A DNA stretch of 64,000 nt from assembly GCF_000385135.1 (NCBI RefSeq), contig NZ_ARQM01000010.1:1426001-1490000 (forward strand), read 5' to 3'. This document shows positions 4,670 to 61,151 of the stretch, one piece after another (within the stretch, counting starts at the first letter, position 1; the number at the start of each line of letters is the position of its first letter). The stretch is from Promicromonospora sukumoe 327MFSha3.1. Lineage in GTDB: Bacteria; Actinomycetota; Actinomycetes; Actinomycetales; Cellulomonadaceae. The translations under genes were made by a program, and so were the position numbers. The notes under the pieces were generated by a model. It saw only the letters and a program-made list of their open reading frames with translations. It had not been told where the DNA came from and did not search any database.

Positions 4670-4849
4670 TCACTCCTCGTTCTTGAAGGCGTCCTTGACG
4701 TTCTCGCCGGCCTTCTTGAGCGAGGCCTTGGTCTGGTCGGCCTGGCCCTCGGCCTCCAGCGACTCGTTGTCGGTGACCTTGCCGGCGGCCTCCTTGGCCT
4801 TGCCGGCGGCGTCCTCGGCGGCGTTCTTGAGCTTGTCGTCGATGCCCAT
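4670..4849 (-). CDS. CsbD family stress protein
   Basis: A short 59-residue protein, highly charged with no membrane segment: it begins MGIDDKLKNAAEDAAGKAKE and continues with another GKV unit and a KASLKKAGENVKDAFKN tail. This is the classic CsbD composition (Lys/Glu/Ala-rich, repeated KxxAxGKxKE units). CsbD proteins are general-stress proteins of unknown biochemical role, often under stress sigma factors. A strong AAGGAG lies just upstream of the ATG. It is divergent from the DUF4383 gene, another protein common in actinobacterial stress regulons. Confidence 0.88.
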   Translation of the reverse strand: MGIDDKLKNAAEDAAGKAKEAAGKVTDNESLEAEGQADQTKASLKKAGENVKDAFKNEE

Positions 4850-5011
4850 GACGTCTCTCCTTCGGTCGGTGAACGTGCCCGATCACCTTCACCCGGGCGT
4901 GCGGGACTCGCCACGGGAGCGGGGTACCGCCTCCCGAAACCGGACCCATCCGGACATGACGTCGCTCCGAACCGTCGGTGAGGCACACGCCGAACAGAAC
5001 GGAGAAAAGCC

Positions 5012-50699: not shown

Positions 50700-51809
50700 T
50701 CAGTCGGCCGGCACCCAGACACGTTCGGGCACCAGCCGCAGCGAGCGCAGCGCGTCCGCGACCAGCCCGGCGTAGACCGTGGCGCCGTACTCGGACGTGT
50801 GGGTGCGGTCGCCGTTGACCCGGTTGAGGTAGATCGGCTCGGAGTCGACCGGGCCGAGCCCCTCCACCAGGTGCTGACTCATCGCGGTGAGGTCGATGAG
50901 CGGCACGTCGAGCCCGGCGGCCACACCGCGCATCTCGGCGGGCAGGTCGGCCTCGGCGGTGACGATCAGGCCGGTGGGGTTGAGCCGGTCGCCGTCGAAC
51001 CGGTGCCGCACGATCGGGGTCACCAGCACGGGCGTCGCCCCGGTCGCGCGGACTCGTTCGACGATCTCGGTCAGGTTGGCGCGGTACTGCGCCGCGGTGG
51101 TGGTCTTGTCGTTGTGCGCGAGCTGCACCAGCGCGACGTCACCGGACCGCAGCTGCGGCACGAGGGCGTCGAACATCTCGGGCTCGGCCAGCACCGAGAC
51201 GGTGCTCTCCCCGGAGCCGGAGTGGTTGACCACGCTGACGCCGTGGCGCAGGTGCGCCGGCAGGCGCTGGCCCCAGCCGGTGTACGGCGCGCTGCCCTGG
51301 TCGGTGACGGTCGAGTCGCCGAGCAGGGCGATCCGCGGGGTGCGCTCCGGCGCGCGGCGGATGCCGATGCCCGCCACGGCCGGGGCGGCCCCGGCGAACG
51401 TCAGCGTGAGGCCCGGCGTGCCCTCGCCCGGCGGCTGGTTCTGCTGGCTCTCCGGGTCGCGCACGTTCACGGTGAACGTGCGGCGCACCAGCTCGCCGGC
51501 CGAGGTCTCGACCTCGTCCGCCATCAGCCGGCGGGCCTCCGCCTGCACCTCGGTGCCGGCGGCGGCGCGCCGGTCGCCGAGCCGGACCGTGACGTCGTAG
51601 TGCCCGGGCGCCAGGTCCGGGTAGGTGCACACGACCGGGTCGGTCCCGGCGCAGTGCTCCAGCAGGGCGGGGTCGGGCCGGGGAGCGCCGCGCGGACCGC
51701 CCGCGGTGTCCCGCGGCAGGGCGCCCACGCCCGTCGTCGTGCCCGCCACCAGGGCCAGGGCCAGCGCGACCGCGCCGACCGTCGCGCGCACGGACCGACC
51801 CGTCCTCAT
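50700..51809 (-). CDS. SGNH/GDSL hydrolase, probable rhamnogalacturonan acetylesterase
   Basis: 369 residues, ATG overlapping the lyase stop (ATGA). Signal peptide to about 30 (VALALALVAGTTTGVGA). An N-terminal beta-sandwich (HYDVTVRLGDRRAAAG) precedes the catalytic domain with SGNH blocks: IALLGDSTVTDQG (Ser), SGSGES (Gly), VQLAHNDK (Asn) and the D-x-x-H pair in NGDRTHTSEYGA. This layout matches secreted CE12 rhamnogalacturonan acetylesterases, which remove acetyl groups from pectin before lyase attack. Co-translation with a PL26-like lyase supports that. Confidence 0.87.
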   Translation of the reverse strand: MRTGRSVRATVGAVALALALVAGTTTGVGALPRDTAGGPRGAPRPDPALLEHCAGTDPVVCTYPDLAPGHYDVTVRLGDRRAAAGTEVQAEARRLMADEVETSAGELVRRTFTVNVRDPESQQNQPPGEGTPGLTLTFAGAAPAVAGIGIRRAPERTPRIALLGDSTVTDQGSAPYTGWGQRLPAHLRHGVSVVNHSGSGESTVSVLAEPEMFDALVPQLRSGDVALVQLAHNDKTTTAAQYRANLTEIVERVRATGATPVLVTPIVRHRFDGDRLNPTGLIVTAEADLPAEMRGVAAGLDVPLIDLTAMSQHLVEGLGPVDSEPIYLNRVNGDRTHTSEYGATVYAGLVADALRSLRLVPERVWVPAD

Positions 51810-54532
51810 GACAGCTCCTGGCCGACCAGCGCCAGGCACTGGATGGCCGCCAGGCCGTACTGCGCGCTGGCGTTGGTCGAGAAGCGGCCCTCGTCCACCG
51901 TGTTGAGCACCCGCGGCGGCTCGACGCGGACCGTCTCGAAGGGGTGGTCGGCCGGGTACCCGGCGTGGCCGGTGCGGAACTCGGTCCACGCCCGGCGCGC
52001 CAGCGTCGTGTCGTCCAGGCGCGCCGCCGCGTAGGCGGTGGCCCGCGAGTACGACTGGCGCAGGTTGAGGCTGCCCCACGACGCACCCGTCGCCGCCACC
52101 TGCTCGGCGGCCGTGCCGTTGTACAGGCGGCAGAACTCGACCCACGCCGCCTCGACCTCCGGCTCGTCGACCAGGTCGATCAGCTCCGTCATCACCTCGA
52201 TGAGCCCGAACACGCTGCTCAGGCTACCGATCGACACCGACGGCTCGGCGGGGCCGGTGAACGTGCCGTCGGCCAGGTCGTAGCGCACCGACCCCTGCAC
52301 CCAGTGGTTCGGCAGCGCCGCGATGGACCGCGCGCCGTTGAGCAGCTTGGTCCGCGCGATCGGGTCGCCGTTCCGCTCCCACTCGGTGAGCCACGCACCC
52401 GCCAGGGCGCCCCAGTCGGTGGTCTGCCCCACGCCCAGCGCCGAGGGGTCCGGGTCGAACGGGCCGCCCCCGTTGATCTTGCGGCCCGGGTCCAGCACCA
52501 GGAACGTCCGGTCCGAGTCCACGAGCTCGTGCAGGGTGTCGCCCACCCGCTCGTCCGCCGTCAGGAAGTAGTAGAACCGCCGGTAGTTCGCGTTCGAGAT
52601 GCGCACCTGCTTCGCGCTGTCGCCCCAGTGCATCACGCCGTGCCGCGTGCCCAGCCCTTTCCACGTGCCCAGGTGGTACTGGTCCACCTCGCCCGTGTGC
52701 CGGGTCATCGCCTCGGCGAGCCGGAACGCCGTCGCGTCACCCGTGCGCAGGTAGTGGTACCAGAGCCACAGGTCCGTGGACAGCTCCGAGTTGTCCCACG
52801 CGTACCCGCCGACGTCGTAGCGCCACTGGTGCCGGTCGCCGTCGTACTCGTGCATCACGTCGCCGTGGTCCCAGAACCCGTACCAGGACCGCTGGTCCAC
52901 CTGGTCCACGTAGTACGCGTGCATCCGGTCCAGGTTGTCCTCGATGGCCGCCCGCGCCGGGGTCGACCGGTCCGCGGGCGCCCACGAGCCGAACACCCCG
53001 GCCGAGTGCACGTGCCCCGGCCCGGCGACCAGCAGCGGCGGCGTGGCGCTCGCGGCGGCCAGCTCGGTGAACCGCTCGGCGGTCGGCGTGGCGGCCAGCG
53101 CCCAGAACATCAGCTCGGTGGTGCGGGCCACGCCGTAGGGCGTGCCGAACTCGGGCTCGTAGTCCTCGTAGGTGATCTCCAGGGCGTCGAGCTGCTCGGG
53201 GTAGGTGTCCTGGCCCAGGCCGTCGTGGTAGAACCGCAGGTCCATGGCCTCGGCCCGCGGCGACCACAGCCAGACCGTCGCCTCGGCCTCGTCGCTCGCG
53301 GCGCCCGAGATCTCCAGCTCGGTGGGGTGCAGCTGCCAGAAGTCGCGCATGCCGAACGCCAGGCCGCCCGACGGCGTGCCGACGTACCCGAGCCCCGCCG
53401 CACGGGTGCCGCCGTCGACCCGGATCCACGAGTGGCCCGGGCCGGTGCGCTTGCGGATCTCGAACCCGTGGGCCGTGAGCTGGGACAGGCTGTAGTCGCC
53501 CCACTGCGGGATCCAGCGCAGGCGGGAGGTGACGCGCTGGTCCCACGTGGCCGGGTCGGGCAGGGCACGGCCCTCGACCTGGGCGGTGCGGACAGCGGCC
53601 CCGGGGTCCCGGCGCAGGCCGGTGATCCCGCGCACCGCCTCGGACAGGACGCCGCCGTCGGCCCCCGCGAACCGCACGTGGCGGTCGTACGCCTCGCCGC
53701 GCATCGGCACCGAGAACGTGACACCGATGCCGGTGATGAAGTCGCGGTTCTCGTCTCCGTCGAACACGAAGGTGTGCACCAGCCGGACGCCGTCCGAACC
53801 GGCGTACAGGTAGAACCGCAGCACGAACGGGAGCCAGGAACGGTGGCCCTTGCGGTGCTTTCCTTCGACCTTGACGACGGCGCGCACCGGCCCGGACTGC
53901 TCGACGGTCACGCGGTCCACGGCGCCCGTGAACGACTCGTGCCGCACGCTTCCGCCCCGGTCGGTGTCCGGCACGTCCTGCCGCGAGACGACGAGCCGGC
54001 CGTTCCGGGCGACGTCCTGCCCGCCCCGGCGGATCGCGCGGACCACCTGGTTGCCGTTGCGGGCGAAGACCACCTGGACCGTGCCGGTGTCGACGGTGAT
54101 CTCGCCCGGCGTCTCCCGGACCGTGACCCGCTTGCCGGGCGCGCTCGGCCGCCCGGCGGCCAGGCGGTACGACTCGGCCCGCGGCGCGTCCGCGCTGACG
54201 GCGTGCGCGGTCCACTTCACACTGCCGTCCGGCCACCAGCCCGTGGGCCAGGTCTGCACCGGCACCGGCTCGCCGGCCGCCGTCGTGAGCGCGAGCTGCT
54301 GGTCGGGGGCGAACGCGCCCCGCGGCCAGGGCACGCCCCAGGTGGTGCCCGCGGCCAGGGCGGCGGGGGAGCCGCCCTCCAGCCAGTGCAGGTCGACCGG
54401 GTCGTGCCCGGCGGGGACCAGGGCGGGGACGCCTTGGGCCGCGCGCGCCGTGGCGAGGCGCGGCCCGAGGGCCACCCCCGCGCCCGCGGCCAGCGCCGAG
54501 GTCAGGACGGTACGCCGACTGATGTGAACCAC
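51806..54532 (-). CDS. Exo-rhamnogalacturonan lyase-like protein (PL26, PcRGLX/YetA family)
   Basis: 908 residues from the GTG at 54532 (GGAG nine bases upstream). Twin-arginine signal ISRRTVLTSALAAGAG, so it is exported folded through Tat. The N-terminal RIFT-barrel domain is diagnostic: TTWGVPWPRGAFAPDQQ, then WPTGWWPDGSVKW. The central part is an (alpha/alpha) toroid (YYVDQVDQRSWYGFWDHGD, YDVGGYAWDNSEL). PL26 enzymes cleave rhamnogalacturonan I from the chain end. Heads the lyase-acetylesterase operon; a shared 17-base motif lies 83 bases upstream. Confidence 0.85.
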   Translation of the reverse strand: MVHISRRTVLTSALAAGAGVALGPRLATARAAQGVPALVPAGHDPVDLHWLEGGSPAALAAGTTWGVPWPRGAFAPDQQLALTTAAGEPVPVQTWPTGWWPDGSVKWTAHAVSADAPRAESYRLAAGRPSAPGKRVTVRETPGEITVDTGTVQVVFARNGNQVVRAIRRGGQDVARNGRLVVSRQDVPDTDRGGSVRHESFTGAVDRVTVEQSGPVRAVVKVEGKHRKGHRSWLPFVLRFYLYAGSDGVRLVHTFVFDGDENRDFITGIGVTFSVPMRGEAYDRHVRFAGADGGVLSEAVRGITGLRRDPGAAVRTAQVEGRALPDPATWDQRVTSRLRWIPQWGDYSLSQLTAHGFEIRKRTGPGHSWIRVDGGTRAAGLGYVGTPSGGLAFGMRDFWQLHPTELEISGAASDEAEATVWLWSPRAEAMDLRFYHDGLGQDTYPEQLDALEITYEDYEPEFGTPYGVARTTELMFWALAATPTAERFTELAAASATPPLLVAGPGHVHSAGVFGSWAPADRSTPARAAIEDNLDRMHAYYVDQVDQRSWYGFWDHGDVMHEYDGDRHQWRYDVGGYAWDNSELSTDLWLWYHYLRTGDATAFRLAEAMTRHTGEVDQYHLGTWKGLGTRHGVMHWGDSAKQVRISNANYRRFYYFLTADERVGDTLHELVDSDRTFLVLDPGRKINGGGPFDPDPSALGVGQTTDWGALAGAWLTEWERNGDPIARTKLLNGARSIAALPNHWVQGSVRYDLADGTFTGPAEPSVSIGSLSSVFGLIEVMTELIDLVDEPEVEAAWVEFCRLYNGTAAEQVAATGASWGSLNLRQSYSRATAYAAARLDDTTLARRAWTEFRTGHAGYPADHPFETVRVEPPRVLNTVDEGRFSTNASAQYGLAAIQCLALVGQELS

Positions 54533-54614
54533 GATGTTCAGCTCCTTCGCGCGAAGTGAGGTCGCCCGTCGTCGGGCGTCAGACATCCTGGGTCGGCGGC
54601 CCGCGGACCGCGGA

Positions 54615-54631
54615 CGAACGGACAAATGCGG
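54615..54631 (-). promoter_or_regulatory. Pectin-locus motif, site A (upstream of the lyase operon)
   Basis: CCGCATTTGTCCGTTCG read on the minus strand, 83 bases before the lyase start. It matches site C (58982-58998) at 16 of 17 positions and site B (57788-57804) at 14 of 17. CGGAC is repeated at 7-8 base steps next to it. Confidence 0.65.
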
Positions 54632-54658
54632 TCAGAGGGCTTGGGTGCGGCCCGGGGC

Positions 54659-55669
54659 TCAGGCCGTCGTGGCGAGCTGGCCGGGCAGTACCTCGTGCCG
54701 CAGGGCCTGGCCGGCCGCGAGCCGTTCCACCTCCGCGACGGCGGACGCGCCGAGCCGCCGCAGCTCGTTGCCCAGCGAGCCCGCCACGTGCGGGGTGAGC
54801 AGCGCGCCGGGCGCCTCGAACAGGGGATGGTCGCGGGGCAGCGGCTCCGGGTCGGTCACGTCGAGGACGGCGCGGAGCCGGCCCGCCACGACCTCACGGG
54901 TCAGCGCCTCGGTGTCCACGAGCTGCCCGCGCGCGGTGTTGACCAGCGTCGTCGCGTCGCGCATCCGGGCCAGCTCCCGCACCCCGAGCATCCGGTAGGT
55001 CTCGGGCAGGGCGGGCGCGTGCACCGTCACGACGTCGGACCGGGTCAGCAGCTCGTCCAGGCTCACGGCGGTGGCGCCGAGGGCGCGCGCGGCCGCGGCG
55101 TCCACCCACGGGTCGTGCAGGAGCGCGTCCACGTCGAACGGGGCCAGCAGGCCCAGCACCTGGCGCCCGATCCGGGAGGCGCCGATCACGCCGACCGTCA
55201 GCCCGTTGTTGCCGAGCGGCGCGGGCGGCGACCAGCCCCGCAGCGTGCGGTCCCGGCCGTAGGCCGCGGCCGACTCCAGCACCCGCTTGCCCGCCAGCAG
55301 CACCATGGCCAGGGTGTACTCCGCGACCGGCCGGGCGTTCGCCTCGGCCGCCGTCGAGACGCGGACGCCCCGCTCCCAGAGGGCGGGCGTGACGAACGAC
55401 TTGACCGTGCCCGCCGTGTGCACCACGGCCCGCAGCCGCGGCGCGCGGCGCAGGAACGCCTCGTCCAGGTACGGCGCGCCCCAGCCGGTGACGAGGACGT
55501 CTGCCGTGGCCAGATCGTCGCGGACCGGGTCGTCCTCGGTCGCCCCCGGCGTCAGCACCCCGTCGGCGACGTCGGCGACCGCCCGCAGGCGGGCGAGCGC
55601 CGCGTCGTCGAACAGGTCGGGCAGCAGCGCCGGGTCGCGGAGCGCGAAGAGCACGCGCGGCCGGGTCAC
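54659..55669 (-). CDS. D-isomer-specific 2-hydroxyacid dehydrogenase
   Basis: 336 residues. Rossmann motif VGVIGASRIGRQVLG, and the catalytic triad of the family: Arg in NTARGQLVD, Glu in DVTDPEPLP and His in LLTPHVAGS. NAD-linked oxidation or reduction of a 2-hydroxy/2-keto acid in the cytoplasm. Its GTG overlaps the DUF2264 gene stop by four bases, so it is part of the pectin-locus operon and probably acts on a uronate- or rhamnose-derived acid. Exact substrate unknown. Confidence 0.9.
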   Translation of the reverse strand: MTRPRVLFALRDPALLPDLFDDAALARLRAVADVADGVLTPGATEDDPVRDDLATADVLVTGWGAPYLDEAFLRRAPRLRAVVHTAGTVKSFVTPALWERGVRVSTAAEANARPVAEYTLAMVLLAGKRVLESAAAYGRDRTLRGWSPPAPLGNNGLTVGVIGASRIGRQVLGLLAPFDVDALLHDPWVDAAAARALGATAVSLDELLTRSDVVTVHAPALPETYRMLGVRELARMRDATTLVNTARGQLVDTEALTREVVAGRLRAVLDVTDPEPLPRDHPLFEAPGALLTPHVAGSLGNELRRLGASAVAEVERLAAGQALRHEVLPGQLATTA

Positions 55670-57750
55670 GCCGCGCCTCCGTCCGTCGCGTGGTCCGCCG
55701 GTCCGGTGGGGACGACGTCGACCACGCCGTCCCGCCAGCGCACCTCGACGACGCCGCGGCCGGGCGCCGGCACCACGGCCTCGACGGCGTCCAGGTCCGC
55801 GGCGGCGGCGTCCCCGGTCAGCACCACGAGCGCGGCCACGACGTCGCCGGGCCCCGCCGGGACGTCGCCGGTCAGCGACGGGACCACCGAGGCCGCGCCG
55901 AGCGGGTCGGCGCCGGTCCGGCGGTCCACGGCCGCCCGGGGCAGGCCGCGCAGTCCCCGCAGCGCCGAGGTCGTCCCGTCGGCCCGGGTCACGCGCACGG
56001 CGCCGCCCGCGCTGTCAGCGCTGTCGGCGGCGTCCGCGGCGTCCGCGGCCAGCTCCTGCTCGGACCCCGCCGCGAGCGGCCACCCGCCCAGCCGGAACGT
56101 CCACGGCCCGGGGTCGGCGGGCCAGGCGACGTCGGCGTCCAGGTCGGAGCCCGGCGGCGGGGCGACCGGCCCGCCTGCGGCGGCCCCGGCCTCGGCCGGC
56201 GGCGTCCACCAGGCCAGGCGCACCTCCAGCGGGCCGCGCACCACGCTCGCCGTGGTGACCACGGGGCCCCGGCGCGCCGCCGCCCAGCCCGCGTGGTCGC
56301 CGTCCGGTCCGCCGCCCGGCACGTCCAGCCAGTGCACGCGCGACCGCGAGACGGCCACCCGCTCGCCCAGGTGCACGCGCTCGATGCCGTCGCGGTGCGA
56401 CGGCCGGCCCGCGCCGTCGAGCAGCGCCACGTGCGAGTCCGACGGCGCCGCGACGTCCGCGGGCGCGAGCTGCGGCGAGACCACGTTGGCGTACCCGACC
56501 CGGCGGTAGAACGGGTCGTCGGCGTGCGCCTGCGCCTGCGGCTCCAGCAGCCGGTCCGAGCCGTGGTTGAGCACCCGCACGATCCCGTCCGACGGCGTCC
56601 CCACGACCAGCCAACCCGGCTCGCGCAGCGGCACCACGTGCTCCTGCCGCCAAGGCGCGGGCACGTCGTCGGGCGCCGTCCACACCGGGTGGTCCGGGGG
56701 CAGCAGCAGGCCCGCGAAACCCTTGCTCGCCCAGTACGGCGACGCCCCGCCCGAGTAGAGCTGCCGCAGCCGGTCGAACCGGCCGTGCCACCCGACCGGC
56801 AGCAGGCCGTGCTCGTCCACGGCGCCGTGCTCGAAGAAGTGCTCCGCGACCGCCGACGTGAGCGCGCCCGTGGCACCCGGCGACAGCGGCGTCGCCCCCG
56901 CCAGCGCCCCGGCCCAGAACGGGGCCAGCACCGCGAACCGGTAGGTGACCGACCGACCCTGCAGCAGCGGCGCCCCGTTCGGCCCGACCAGGTGCTGCGC
57001 CTGCTCCAGGTAGGCCCGCAGCCGCTCCGCGTGCCGCTCGGCGAGCGGGCGGCCCTCGATGCGCGCGTGCAGCACCGGGTACAGGTGCCACGCCCACCCG
57101 GCGTACCAGTCGAACGTCTGCCGCCGCCCGTCGCGGCCGCGCCCGTCCGAGTACCAGCCGTCGCCCACGTACAGGCCCTCGGCCAGCTCCTCGTTGCGGT
57201 CCAGGTCGGCCTGGTCCCACGGCCCGCCCACCGACACGAGGAACGCCTCGATCACGTTCTGGAACCAGACCCAGTTGTTGCGGTACCCGCTGGTGCCGAC
57301 CACCCCGGCGAGCCACGCGACCACGCGCTCGCGGACGTCGTGGTCCAGCCGGTCCCACAGCCAGGGCCGCGTCTCGGCCAGCCCCACGGCGACCGACGCC
57401 GCCTCCACGACGGCCTGCCGGCGCTCGTCGATGCGCGGCCAGCGCTCGGGGCTCGCGGGGTCGGTGCCGTTCCGCAGCCCCTCGGCGTACCGCTCCAGCA
57501 GGCCGTCGGGGTCGGCGCCGTCCTGCCCCCGCACCCGGAAGGCCGCCAGGAGGAAGGTCCGGGCGAAGCCCTCCAGCCCGTCGCTCCACGCGCCCGAGGC
57601 GCTGACCGGCCCGGGCAGCGGCAGCAGGGCGCGGCCGGGGGAGGCGTAGGGCTCGGTGGCACGCAGCAGGTCGTCGGCGGTCGCCAGCCAGCGGTCGCGG
57701 CTCCAGCGCGGGGCGGGCTCGGGCACGGGGGAGGTGGGTGCGGTCGTCAC
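55666..57750 (-). CDS. DUF2264 family protein, probable glycoside-acting enzyme
   Basis: 694 residues from the GTG at 57750 (GAGGA upstream). No signal peptide, so it is cytoplasmic. The N-terminal 380 residues form an (alpha/alpha) barrel-type region typical of DUF2264: GLEGFARTFLLAAFR, SGYRNNWVWFQNVIEAFLVSV and DWYAGWAWHLYPVL; a beta-rich C-terminal half follows. DUF2264 genes recur in pectin and uronic-acid loci and are thought to be glycosidases acting on oligosaccharides after import. It heads the operon with the 2-hydroxyacid dehydrogenase, and site B lies 38 bases upstream. Confidence 0.83.
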   Translation of the reverse strand: MTTAPTSPVPEPAPRWSRDRWLATADDLLRATEPYASPGRALLPLPGPVSASGAWSDGLEGFARTFLLAAFRVRGQDGADPDGLLERYAEGLRNGTDPASPERWPRIDERRQAVVEAASVAVGLAETRPWLWDRLDHDVRERVVAWLAGVVGTSGYRNNWVWFQNVIEAFLVSVGGPWDQADLDRNEELAEGLYVGDGWYSDGRGRDGRRQTFDWYAGWAWHLYPVLHARIEGRPLAERHAERLRAYLEQAQHLVGPNGAPLLQGRSVTYRFAVLAPFWAGALAGATPLSPGATGALTSAVAEHFFEHGAVDEHGLLPVGWHGRFDRLRQLYSGGASPYWASKGFAGLLLPPDHPVWTAPDDVPAPWRQEHVVPLREPGWLVVGTPSDGIVRVLNHGSDRLLEPQAQAHADDPFYRRVGYANVVSPQLAPADVAAPSDSHVALLDGAGRPSHRDGIERVHLGERVAVSRSRVHWLDVPGGGPDGDHAGWAAARRGPVVTTASVVRGPLEVRLAWWTPPAEAGAAAGGPVAPPPGSDLDADVAWPADPGPWTFRLGGWPLAAGSEQELAADAADAADSADSAGGAVRVTRADGTTSALRGLRGLPRAAVDRRTGADPLGAASVVPSLTGDVPAGPGDVVAALVVLTGDAAAADLDAVEAVVPAPGRGVVEVRWRDGVVDVVPTGPADHATDGGAA

Positions 57751-57787
57751 GCGCGCATCCTCACCCGCCGCACCGCCCGGACCTGTC

Positions 57788-57804
57788 CGACCGGACAATT
57801 CCGG
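57788..57804 (-). promoter_or_regulatory. Pectin-locus motif, site B (between DUF2264 and regulator genes)
   Basis: CCGGAATTGTCCGGTCG on the minus strand, 38 bases before the DUF2264 start and 65 bases before the divergent regulator start. It also forms part of a small palindrome TGTCCG-AC-CGGACA (57784-57797). Confidence 0.6.
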
Positions 57805-57868
57805 TCATCGGCTGGCTACAGTGTCCTCCGGCGTCGACGGGGACGCCGCCGGGCACGAGGAGAGAGAC

Positions 57869-58981
57869 ATGCACCTGCCGAGGAGCCGGCACGAGTACCT
57901 GCTGCGTGAGGTCGAGCTGCGGGGGAGCGTGCGCTCGGCCGAGGTCGCGGCGCGGCTGGAGGTCTCCGAGGTGACCATCCGCCGCGACATCCGGGAGCTG
58001 GAGCGGGCGGGCAAGCTCGGGCGCGTGCACGGCGGGGCCATCGCGCTGCGCTCCGACCGGGGCCCGCAGGCCGCCCAGGCCCTGGTGGGCGTGGTGGTGC
58101 CGAGCGCCGTGGCGCACTTCCTGGACACCGTCCGGGGCATGGAGGCGCTGGCGCCGTCCCTGCGCGTGCGGCTGGTGCTCGGCGTCTCGCACTACCGGTC
58201 CGAGCTGGAGGTGCAGCAGGTCGAGCGGCTCCTCGCGCTGGGCGCGACGGGCCTGGTGCTCGCCCCCACCACGCGCGACCGCAGCCCGGAGGACCTCGCG
58301 GCGTGGCTCGGCTCCATCCCCGTGCCGCTGGTGCTCGTCGAGCGGCGCATCGACGCGCTGACGAGCCTCAGCGAGCTCGACGTGGCCCGCACCGACCACG
58401 CGCACGGTGCCGTGCTCGCCGTCGAGCACCTGGCCCGGCTGGGGCACCGCCGCGTGGGGCTCGGCGTCTACGACCGGACCCCCACCGCGCCCCGCGTGCG
58501 GGAGGGCCACGCCACGGCCGTGGCCCGGCTGGGCCTCGAACCGGGTCCGGACGTCGCCCTGTCCAAGGGTGACGAGGACCCGCCGCGGCTGCGGCGCGAG
58601 CTCGCCGACCTGCTCGACCGGTGCCTCGCGACCGGCACCCGGGCGGTGCTCGTGCACACCGACGACCACGCCGCGCGCCTCGTGGAGACCGCCCTGGACC
58701 GCGGCCTGCGCGTGCCCGACGACCTCGCCGTCGTGGCCTACGACGACGAGAACGCCGAGCTCGCCGCCGTGCCGCTGACCACCGTGACGACACCCCGCCG
58801 CGAGCTCGGCCGGGAGGCGCTGCAGCTCCTGGTCGACCGCATCGCCCACGACACCGGCGAGCGCGACACCGACGTGCGCGACGCCGCCGAGCACCGCCCG
58901 CCGCGGCACATCGAGCTGCTGCCCCGGCTGACCGTGCGCGCCTCCTGCGGGGCGGCGGCCGGGCCCACGTCCCGGCCGTGA
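57869..58981 (+). CDS. Hybrid regulator: DeoR-type HTH fused to a LacI-type sugar-binding domain
   Basis: 370 residues from the ATG at 57869 (GAGGAG seven bases upstream). The first 60 residues are a DeoR winged helix-turn-helix (VRSAEVAARLEVSEVTIRRDI, then GRVHGGAI), not a LacI HTH. From about 72 on is a periplasmic-binding-protein-type sensor (VGVVVPSAVAHFLDTVRGME, RLGHRRVGLGVYDRTPTAPR, VPDDLAVVAYDDENAELAAV). Such hybrids sense sugars or oligosaccharides. It lies in the centre of the pectin locus between divergent units, and three copies of a shared motif precede those units, so it is the likely local regulator. Confidence 0.87.
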   Translation: MHLPRSRHEYLLREVELRGSVRSAEVAARLEVSEVTIRRDIRELERAGKLGRVHGGAIALRSDRGPQAAQALVGVVVPSAVAHFLDTVRGMEALAPSLRVRLVLGVSHYRSELEVQQVERLLALGATGLVLAPTTRDRSPEDLAAWLGSIPVPLVLVERRIDALTSLSELDVARTDHAHGAVLAVEHLARLGHRRVGLGVYDRTPTAPRVREGHATAVARLGLEPGPDVALSKGDEDPPRLRRELADLLDRCLATGTRAVLVHTDDHAARLVETALDRGLRVPDDLAVVAYDDENAELAAVPLTTVTTPRRELGREALQLLVDRIAHDTGERDTDVRDAAEHRPPRHIELLPRLTVRASCGAAAGPTSRP

Positions 58982-58998
58982 CCGCTTTTGTCCGTTCG
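58982..58998 (+). promoter_or_regulatory. Pectin-locus motif, site C (upstream of the sugar-binding lipoprotein)
   Basis: CCGCTTTTGTCCGTTCG on the plus strand, immediately after the regulator stop and 85 bases before the lipoprotein start. It differs from site A at a single base, with almost the same distance to the start codon (83 and 85 bases). Confidence 0.65.
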
Positions 58999-59082
58999 CG
59001 CGGCGGGGTGCGCGCGGCGCTGCACGCTGTGCGCGGGTCAGGGCGTCTCCGTCCTGCGACGAACACGAGCAAGGAGGCTCAC

Positions 59083-60411
59083 ATGTTTCTGCACGCGAGG
59101 AGCGACCGCGGCACGGCCCGCGGTCGCGGCCGCCGGAGGATGGTCCGCGCCGGGGTGGCCGTGGCGGCCGTGCTGGCCGTGGCCGCGTGCTCGTCCGGCG
59201 GCTCGGGGTCGGGCGGCTCGGGCGAGGACGTGTCGCTGACGTTCTCCTGGTGGGGCGACGCCAGCCGCGCCGAGCGGTACGAGCAGGCGCTGGAGATCTT
59301 CGAGGAGGACAACCCGGGGATCACCGTCCAGACCAACTACGCGGGCTTCACCGACTACTGGACCGCGCGCAACACCGAGGCCGCCAGCCGCACCCTGCCC
59401 GACGTGCTCCAGATGGACCTCGCCTACCTCACCGAGTACACCGAGTTCGGGCACGTGATCCCGCTCGACGAGTACTTCGGCGACACGATCGACGTCGACA
59501 CCATCGCCGAGCCCCTGCTCGCCTCGGGGCAGCTGGACGGCCAGACCTATGGCCTGGCCAGCAGCGCGAGCACGCTCGGCACGTTCGTCAACACCGACCT
59601 GCTCGACGAGCTCGGCGTCGACGTGCCCGAGGAGGGCCTGACCTGGGACGAGTACGACGCCCTGCTCGCCGAGATCTCCGCCGCCGGGGCCGAGCACGAC
59701 CCCGCCGTCTACGGCTCCGTCGACTACACCCAGTTCTTCTGGCTGTTCCAGATCTGGCTGCAGCAGAACGGCAGGTCGCTGTTCGACGGCGACCAGCTCG
59801 GCTTCACGGAGGACGACCTCGCCACCTGGTGGGGCAAGAGCGCCGCGATCCACGAGCAGGACGGGTTCCTGCCGACCAAGCGCCAGGAGCAGCTCTCCGG
59901 CGCGGACGCCGTCGGCGTGGGCGAGACCGCCGCCGAGATCAGCTGGGACAACTTCCTGGTCCGGTTCAGCGAGGGTCAGGCGGAGCCGAACCTGACGCTG
60001 CTGCCCGTGCCGGCCGACGACTTCGAGAACAACAGCGGCATGTTCCTCAAGCCCGGCCTGCAGCTCTCGGTCGCGGCCAACAGCGAGCACCCCGACGAGG
60101 CCGCGAAGCTGGTCGACTTCCTGGTCAACGACCCCCGCGTCGGCGAGATCTTCGGCATGTCCCGCGGCGTGCCGGCGTCGAGCGCCACGCTGGAGGGCGT
60201 CGAGCTGGACGAGCTCGACCAGCAGATCCTCGACTACGAGGGCGCGCTCGAACCCCACCTCGTGGGGTCGGCGCCGCCGCCCGTGGCCGGTCTCAGCAAC
60301 CTGGAGGCCAGCTTCACGACCATCGCCCTGGAGGTCGCCTACGGGACGCTGACCGCGGACGAGGCGGCCGACCGGTGGTTCGCCGAGGCGGAGACCTCGC
60401 TCGCGGGGTAG
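59083..60411 (+). CDS. Extracellular sugar-binding lipoprotein of an ABC importer
   Basis: 442 residues from the ATG at 59083 (AAGGAGG upstream). Lipoprotein signal ends AVLAVAAC with C36, followed by a Gly/Ser-rich linker. The mature protein is a family-1 solute-binding protein: SLTFSWWGDASRAERYEQAL, TLPDVLQMDLAYLTEY, and the late segment SEHPDEAAKLVDFLVNDPRV. It would capture pectin-derived oligosaccharides. No permease or ATPase genes follow; a terminator hairpin comes next. The transporter must use permeases from elsewhere. Confidence 0.9.
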   Translation: MFLHARSDRGTARGRGRRRMVRAGVAVAAVLAVAACSSGGSGSGGSGEDVSLTFSWWGDASRAERYEQALEIFEEDNPGITVQTNYAGFTDYWTARNTEAASRTLPDVLQMDLAYLTEYTEFGHVIPLDEYFGDTIDVDTIAEPLLASGQLDGQTYGLASSASTLGTFVNTDLLDELGVDVPEEGLTWDEYDALLAEISAAGAEHDPAVYGSVDYTQFFWLFQIWLQQNGRSLFDGDQLGFTEDDLATWWGKSAAIHEQDGFLPTKRQEQLSGADAVGVGETAAEISWDNFLVRFSEGQAEPNLTLLPVPADDFENNSGMFLKPGLQLSVAANSEHPDEAAKLVDFLVNDPRVGEIFGMSRGVPASSATLEGVELDELDQQILDYEGALEPHLVGSAPPPVAGLSNLEASFTTIALEVAYGTLTADEAADRWFAEAETSLAG

Positions 60412-60420
60412 GTCTCACCA

Positions 60421-60466
60421 CGCCCGCGGGGCCGCGCCGGCCAGCTTCGGTGCGGCTCCGCGGGCG
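60421..60466 (+). terminator. Hairpin terminator after the sugar-binding lipoprotein gene
   Basis: CGCCCGCGGGGCCGC (60421-60435) pairs with GCGGCTCCGCGGGCG (60452-60466), 15 bp including one G-T pair, loop of 16 bases, nine bases after the stop, followed by GCGTTGTTAC. It closes the gene as a single-gene transcript. Confidence 0.7.
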
Positions 60467-60485
60467 CGTTGTTACGGTGTCGGGC

Positions 60486-61151
60486 ATGTTCTCGGACCGG
60501 AGTCGCCGTCGTGCTGACCAGCGGGTACGGCCAGGAGACGGCAGCCCGCTCCAACGCTTCCGGTGGTGGCAGCCGCTCTCGCGCTCGCTGTTCCACCTGG
60601 AGCTGACCACCGCGGACGGCCGCCCCGAGACCTGGTCGGTGGACATCCGGCACGGTGGCGACGACAACGGCACGGTCCGCGCGAAGCTCTACCTCGACGG
60701 CCGGCTGCACGCGGTCTCGAAGCTCCCGGCCCGGTTCCCGGTCACGGGCGGCGTCATCGAGGTGGTCACCAGCGGTTTCGGCCTGCGCCGCTGCCACTAC
60801 GTGTCCGACGACGGCGCGGAGCGCCAGCTCGCGCCCGACGTCGCCTCGGCCGAGGGCCGCCGCGCCCGCCTGGAGAACGCGCATCCGGTCGCGGGCCGGC
60901 TCATCGGGCTCGTCTCCGTCGTCGTCCTGCTGATCGGCCTGGTCCTCGGGGTGCCGCAGATCATCGAGGAGGTCTCCCAGTTCCCGCCGCTCGCCGAGCG
61001 GATCGGCTCCACCTTCACCTCGCCGATCCAGCTGCCCGCGTGGCTCAACCTCTCGATCCTGGCCGCCACCCTGGTGGCCAGCACCGAGCGCGCCCTGCGC
61101 CTGCGCTACAACTGGCTGCTCGACGGCGGCCTGTTCGACGGCGACGGCTGA
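60486..61151 (+). CDS. Conserved hypothetical membrane protein
   Basis: 221 residues from the ATG at 60486. The N-terminal 130 residues are soluble and beta-rich (FRWWQPLSRSLFHLELTTAD, WSVDIRHGGDDNGTVRAKLY). Two helices follow (IGLVSVVVLLIGLVLGVPQII and WLNLSILAATLVASTERALR), and the end is RLRYNWLLDGGLFDGDG. I do not know a characterised family. Similar lengths and the RYNWLLDG ending suggest an actinobacterial conserved family. It is monocistronic. Confidence 0.78.
   Translation: MFSDRSRRRADQRVRPGDGSPLQRFRWWQPLSRSLFHLELTTADGRPETWSVDIRHGGDDNGTVRAKLYLDGRLHAVSKLPARFPVTGGVIEVVTSGFGLRRCHYVSDDGAERQLAPDVASAEGRRARLENAHPVAGRLIGLVSVVVLLIGLVLGVPQIIEEVSQFPPLAERIGSTFTSPIQLPAWLNLSILAATLVASTERALRLRYNWLLDGGLFDGDG

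Follow-up and report, generated by a model that had tools for sequence, protein, structure and literature searches.

A 20-bp directional element, TGAyCGttTTTGTCCGTTCG, stands in front of three transcription units of a rhamnogalacturonan locus in Promicromonospora sukumoe and is very probably bound by the hybrid regulator whose gene lies beside them. Positions are those of the window, that is, the whole stretch of 64,000 nucleotides that was analysed. Judged from its surroundings, the element is part of the promoter, a feature missed by the initial annotation of this DNA, and its geometry suggests activation rather than repression of the three units. On balance, I favour a reading in which the regulator would bind the element, activate the three target promoters and restrain its own divergent promoter. 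Autorepression is probably the likelier effect at the regulator gene, but it is the weaker-supported part of this reading.

The initial annotation described a 17-base motif at 54615-54631 (minus strand), 58982-58998 (plus strand) and 57788-57804 (minus strand), with one mismatch between the first two sites and three in the last. Positions, strands and mismatch counts were all recovered, and the 83, 38 and 85 bases reported between the motifs and the start codons are the 82, 37 and 84 intervening bases found here, counted differently. The motif is real, but its length was set too short: the element begins three bases earlier (TGAcCG...) and comprises a tandem direct repeat, TGayCG / TGTCCG, with a 10-bp period. 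In site 3, the first three bases double as the stop codon of the regulator gene.

Table 1. Sites, -10-like hexamers and genes of the locus (positions in the window; the 31-site model is described in the text)
Feature	Position	Strand	Remarks
Site 1, TGACCGCATTTGTCCGTTCG	54615..54634	-	5' of the PL26-type rhamnogalacturonan lyase gene; one of three own-genome matches of the 31-site model
Site 2, TGACCGGAATTGTCCGGTCG	57788..57807	-	Divergent DUF2264/regulator intergenic region; also faces the regulator gene
Site 3, TGACCGCTTTTGTCCGTTCG	58979..58998	+	5' of the sugar-binding lipoprotein gene; own-genome match of the 31-site model
-10-like hexamer CAGGAT	54585..54590	-	24 bp 3' of site 1
-10-like hexamer GAGGAT	57757..57762	-	25 bp 3' of site 2; 6 nt before the DUF2264 GTG start
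-10-like hexamer CACGCT	59023..59028	+	24 bp 3' of site 3
-10-like TACAGT of the regulator gene	57817..57822	+	9 bp from the outer edge of site 2
SGNH/GDSL esterase	50700..51809	-	Next same-strand gene after the lyase; Pfam Lipase_GDSL_2
PcRGLX-like (PL26-type) rhamnogalacturonan lyase	51806..54532	-	Putative target; domain search
D-2-hydroxyacid dehydrogenase	54659..55669	-	Second gene of the DUF2264 unit
DUF2264 protein	55666..57750	-	Putative target; GTG start codon
Regulator	57869..58981	+	DeoR-type HTH (residues 7-61) and LacI/periplasmic-binding-type sensor (Pfam); sensor also matches LacI-type PDB chains
Extracellular sugar-binding lipoprotein (SBP_bac_1)	59083..60411	+	Putative target

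That the locus encodes a DeoR/LacI hybrid regulator, as had been proposed, is borne out by the Pfam matches of its DNA-binding domain (PF08220, 4.7e-15) and sensor (Peripla_BP_3, 7.6e-28). Beyond residue 61 no DeoR-type C-terminal sugar-phosphate sensor was matched, just periplasmic-binding/LacI-type domains (Pfam, E <= 0.001), so the protein is a hybrid and not a full DeoR-family member; a LacI-type HTH is absent from its five Pfam matches. The best solved relative by sequence is 3tb6, an arabinose repressor chain, matched in the sensor part. Among the neighbours, I take the lyase to belong to family PL26. The GDSL esterase that follows it is probably a pectin or rhamnogalacturonan acetylesterase, and its match to the pectin acetylesterase PaeY is weak, far under the model cut-off. 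No recognised permease gene lies directly 3' of the lipoprotein gene, where Pfam recognises nothing in the next frame (60411-61151). At another locus, L043, a permease (PF00528) comes after a paralogous lipoprotein in a different part of the locus; the regulated lipoprotein may therefore borrow permeases.

The architecture of the element was characterized by comparing it with itself. Self-match at a lag of 10 reached 0.544, against 0.258 in column shuffles (0 of 500 as high), and at a lag of 14 it also exceeded most shuffles (1.8% as high). The profile correlated with itself at 0.73 for offset 10 and 0.62 for offset 14, and at 0.47 with its reverse complement. A dyad centred at 9.5 (0.438, against 0.223 in shuffles; 1% of shuffles as high) was weaker than the direct repeat, and a purely palindromic operator fared less well than a direct repeat in both the profile correlation and the self-match shuffles. 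The earlier description of the motif as directional and not fully palindromic thus stands, with the addition of a secondary dyad character; the proposed CGGAC-type repeats hold as repeats, their unit being TGNNCG at a 10-bp period and not just CGGAC. Because of the secondary dyad, the regulator could conceivably bind in an inverted arrangement as well. Site 2 contains the dyad GACCGGA-ATTG-TCCGGTC, whose 7-bp arms are perfect, and its second repeat also takes part in an inverted pair, TGTCCG-GT-CGGACA (57784-57797, minus strand). A CGGAC half lies 3' of the box in 9 of 16 DUF2264 rows (manual count). In the divergent regions of loci L040, L051 and L053, three TGNNCG units follow one another, each 10 bp from the last, so that more than one dimer may be bound at some sites.

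Conservation was examined at orthologous loci and is strong, as judged by motif discovery, orientation, the split between orthologues and paralogues, and occurrence in other families. A regulator match at <=1e-40 is present in 62 of 200 genomes of the family; close orthologues (at least 70% identity) are confined to the window's genome and 14 others, the remaining matches lying below 50%. A scan of named genomes yielded 16 loci from Promicromonospora, Isoptericola, Krasilnikoviella, Myceligenerans, Cellulomonas, Microbacterium and Nonomuraea, with P. kroppenstedtii nearly identical to the window (95-99.5% between the protein pieces of regulator, DUF2264 and lipoprotein). EM was run on 42 upstream regions, not seeded with the motif, with starts drawn from these regions, five of which belong to paralogous sugar-binding-protein (SBP) genes; the 12 best of 400 starts were refined, and 12 of 12 reached TGAcCGtTtTTGTCCGTTCG. 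L046 and L049, near copies of the window, were excluded from training, and L044, a near copy of L043, from the 34-site counts below and from the model.

In all 39 regions 5' of orthologous DUF2264, lyase and lipoprotein genes, 37 of them training data, the best match is oriented toward the gene. The five paralogous lipoprotein regions, which were in the EM set and outside these 39, gave weak best matches of at most 13.1 bits, against 14.1 bits for the lowest orthologous site (PL26 gene of L040). Among the loci scored, the element precedes 11 of 11 PL26 orthologues versus 0 of 7 paralogues (19 of 19 matches scored) and 15 of 15 lipoprotein orthologues versus 0 of 15 paralogues (30 of 61 matches scored), counts that leave out L105, which lacks its 5' end, and that are not independent, as orthologous sites share descent. 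At L048 the DUF2264 gene lies 4 kb from the regulator yet has its own site; in this broken gene order, the site travels with the gene. Sequence comparison sees the element co-inherited with the regulator.

The element stands at a set distance from a -10-like hexamer. NANNNT occurs 24 or 25 bp downstream of all 34 non-redundant sites, at 24 bp in 26 of them (about 1.8% expected per offset), and 20 of the 34 hexamers read CASSAT (manual count). These sites were chosen without the hexamer, which was first noticed on that same alignment, so the fair test is provided by out-of-sample loci. Ten such loci come from other families of the order, and their regulators are 49-65% identical. Nine of them contained 12 matches of at least 14 bits, and the hexamer was found at 24 or 25 bp in 12 of 12 (background 3.9%). 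L069, one of the ten, had no site within the 4 kb read, the regulator upstream region included. Site and hexamer are also both present, outside training, at lipoprotein orthologues on other contigs of genomes G110 and G152 and at the PL26 genes of G155 and G152. In a tree, a single branch of 25 rows, fully supported, unites the loci of 24/25 geometry with L069 and L075; these two are outside the labelled tree group, and L075 has a site with the 24/25 spacing.

The start codons of the DUF2264 genes agree with this -10 assignment. Of 16 genes, 15 have their start exactly 6 nt past the hexamer and one (L054) has it at 7 nt, the 16 rows including the near copies L044 and L046; among four order-level DUF2264 loci, L066 and L075 have 6 nt, and in L068 and L070 the start-like codons are found at 5 or 7. 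This would look like a leaderless layout, with transcription of the DUF2264 mRNAs beginning on or beside the start codon, and it thereby supports the hexamer as a -10. At the place of the -35 box, no TTGACA-like consensus was seen by eye among the hexamers listed at spacers 17 and 18; good -35 boxes are often absent from actinobacterial promoters. TTGTCC, within the element, was considered as a -35 and rejected, since it precedes the -10 hexamer by 29 bp, more than a normal sigma-70 spacer allows.

On the other side, toward the regulator, 13 of 17 rows have a TANNNT hexamer, whose distance from the site is 18 or 19 bp in eight of the 13 and 8, 9, 9, 20 and 31 bp in the others; the 8-9 and 18-19 spacings are one helical turn apart. 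None occurs within 70 bp in L043, L044, L051 and the DUF2264 row of L048; in L048 it is the lyase that the regulator faces, with TANNNT at 18. In the window, the short distance between TACAGT and site 2 means that the site would cover the -35 region of the regulator. By this comparison the spacing on the regulator side appears looser than on the target side, though not random. That the placement of the regulator -10 is itself not free narrows the contrast with the targets and slightly lowers the odds of the favoured reading.

Activator-dependent promoters are marked by a common orientation of the sites, a fixed spacing to the -10, a position upstream of the promoter core and the lack of an evident -35. 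The first three are seen here, and by eye the fourth as well, which favours activation, and the fixed 24/25 bp together with the apparent lack of a -35 consensus describes an activator box better than a conventional repressor operator. A class-II-like position, just upstream of or overlapping the -35 region and fixed to the -10, was found for 34 of 34 sites and, out of sample, for 12 of 12. The predicted sequence of events is as follows. A regulator dimer would set its two DeoR-type HTH domains on TGayCG and TGTCCG, on successive turns of one DNA face, and would lie at about -56 to -37 from the transcription start, immediately upstream of the place of the missing -35 box. With a ligand in the LacI-type sensor, presumably a rhamnogalacturonan oligosaccharide, the bound protein would touch RNA polymerase and recruit it to the lyase, DUF2264 and sugar-binding-protein promoters, whose -10 is weak, in a class-II-like activation. 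At site 2, the same complex would cover the -35 region of the promoter that diverges toward the regulator gene and would limit regulator synthesis.

The strongest alternative keeps the same site and regulator and makes the protein a classical repressor, which at -56 to -37 would hinder polymerase until released by a pectin oligosaccharide, the spacing being a conserved promoter layout. I consider this reading rather unlikely, yet it deserves serious attention. The majority of characterised LacI- and DeoR-type sugar regulators repress; in the accessible part of a study of Caldicellulosiruptor, all 12 LacI and DeoR regulators were judged repressors from site position, and AraC types activators (PMC8579813). 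Site 2 covering the regulator's own -35 region also suits a repressor, as do some related hybrids of at most 48% identity, which have similar repeats nearby without the fixed spacing. Against it, the 24/25 bp are kept at three unrelated promoters in many genera, the site is upstream of the promoter core, all 39 of 39 regions share one orientation, and a -35 consensus is not apparent.

These distant hybrids were surveyed further. Beside 32 regulators of at most 48% identity, 11 of the loci gave 16 matches of at least 14 bits in all, where block shuffles gave 0.6, and one of the 16 had the hexamer at 24/25; 21 of the 32 loci had no match of at least 14 bits. Tandem repeats such as TGATCGnnnnTGATCG or TGAGCGnnnnTGAGCG lie beside the regulator gene in L022, L024, L027, L029 and L033 and 5' of a dehydrogenase-DUF2264 pair in L062 and L063; they have the 10-bp period, and the 24/25-bp spacing is absent. 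An unbiased lag scan of the distant paralogues gave lag 10 in 4 of 64 regions versus 0.7 in shuffles, and lags 12 and 15 in nine each, an excess that probably comes from codon periodicity; beside the ten nearer regulators, lag 10 appeared in just 1 of 20 regions. As the scan is not clean, the idea of a family-wide direct repeat rests on the specific matches only. A broader version of the activation hypothesis, which I would put at close to an even chance, is that a hybrid clade spanning several families of one actinobacterial order consists of activators that replace the -35 through a 10-bp tandem repeat 24/25 bp before the -10, with leaderless DUF2264 mRNA and restraint of their own gene. If this were true, the change from one mode of control to the other, repressor or activator, could be followed inside a single protein family, given that some more distant relatives have the TGNNCG repeat without the spacing.

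Genome-wide searches bear on the identity of the bound protein. The motif is not evenly spread, the matches of the own genome being concentrated at this locus. This result and the conservation at orthologous loci both favour the initial annotation, which had named an equal genome-wide frequency and a lack of conservation as refuting outcomes. In 6.25 Mb on 18 contigs, the 18-base pattern GAMCGNANTTGTCCGKTC has four places at <=1 mismatch, three of which are the window's sites; the fourth adjoins a palindrome on contig 11. A sequence-only model of 31 sites was also built, with the window's sites and those of the near-identical P. kroppenstedtii left out; at most 150 candidates were scored per genome, so that weak sites were possibly overlooked. 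Among the scored candidates of the own genome, its three matches at E <= 10 (14.4-15.6 bits) were exactly the three sites of the window. Matches were present in 14 of 14 genomes with a close regulator orthologue, 29 in all: 24 before orthologous targets (17 being training sites), two before paralogous dehydrogenase-DUF2264 operons (L062 and L063, where the box match is present and the 24/25 spacing is not) and three at no related gene (G021:C2, G077:C10 and G128:C58, the last adjoining a palindrome like that of locus L001). At L001 (about 4820-4980) and near 3035 in L059, a near-perfect palindrome, with an CCGCCAAATTGGCGG core in L001, is followed by a look-alike of the box; L001 has a second, diverged copy about 100 bp farther along, and at <=3 mismatches the palindrome has a single place in the own genome.

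The box might instead be bound by another transcription factor encoded elsewhere, with the hybrid regulator a mere neighbour. This is improbable. It could appeal to the fact that binding by the hybrid is something I infer from sequence, and that the SBP target can sit on a contig other than the regulator's, as two of the 24 orthologous-target matches do (lipoprotein orthologues of G110 and of the 440-contig draft G152). However, the box accompanies the close regulator orthologues in every one of the 14 genomes, and 26 of the 29 matches (17 of the 26 being training sites) are at DUF2264, PL26 or SBP genes or the paralogous operon. By comparison, 14 hand-picked control genomes without a regulator match at 1e-40 gave just seven matches, in five of them, the best at 12.2 bits. 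TGNNCG tandem repeats also occur beside some of the less closely related hybrids, and direct repeats of 10-11 bp suit a DeoR HTH. Coincidence or a dispersed repeat is a negligible prospect: the window alone offers modest evidence, with three matches at <=3 mismatches versus 0.60 expected and two of 100 shuffles giving three, but genome-wide specificity and conservation across genera and families refute it.

Activation by the hybrid, as predicted here, runs counter to what is usually expected of LacI- and DeoR-type sugar regulators. For a hybrid type without a described operator in the literature found, the analysis predicts the DNA code, the targets and the promoter geometry; it also links DUF2264 to rhamnogalacturonan use and offers a compact, possibly inducible promoter for actinobacteria. 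In a literature search whose coverage mostly excludes subscription journals, no plain description of such hybrids, their operators or this locus was found, although two papers on hybrid or chimeric regulators came up (PMC6079105, PMC10766802), and the term DUF2264 was absent; the words DeoR and hybrid are both absent from the accessible part of a paper on LacI-family regulons (PMC4052901).

The regulator can be compared with several known systems. With LacI/GalR-family sugar regulators it shares the LacI-type sensor, but it has no LacI HTH, its site is a direct repeat with a secondary dyad, and it is likely an activator. AraR carries a GntR-type HTH. Its structure 3tb6, presumably of the Bacillus subtilis protein, exemplifies a LacI-type sensor on a foreign HTH, as here, where the HTH is DeoR-type; AraR is a repressor by name. 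The PhoB box is an activator box with tandem repeats upstream of the promoter. AraC-family activator boxes are likewise directional direct repeats upstream of the promoter, in the accessible part of PMC8579813, but belong to an unrelated DNA-binding domain, and in the present case the 10-bp repeats lie 24/25 bp before the -10. Similar in operator form are the RhaR regulons of rhamnose catabolism (PMC3870299, accessible part), in which a DeoR-family regulator recognises motifs of two imperfect direct repeats with a 10-11 bp period, an arrangement that fits the DeoR-type HTH of the hybrid. Both systems combine a direct-repeat operator, a DeoR-type HTH and plant-sugar catabolism; RhaR proteins are DeoR-family members with group-specific motifs, whereas the regulator described here has a LacI-type sensor, lyase, DUF2264 and sugar-binding-protein targets, and a fixed spacing to the -10.
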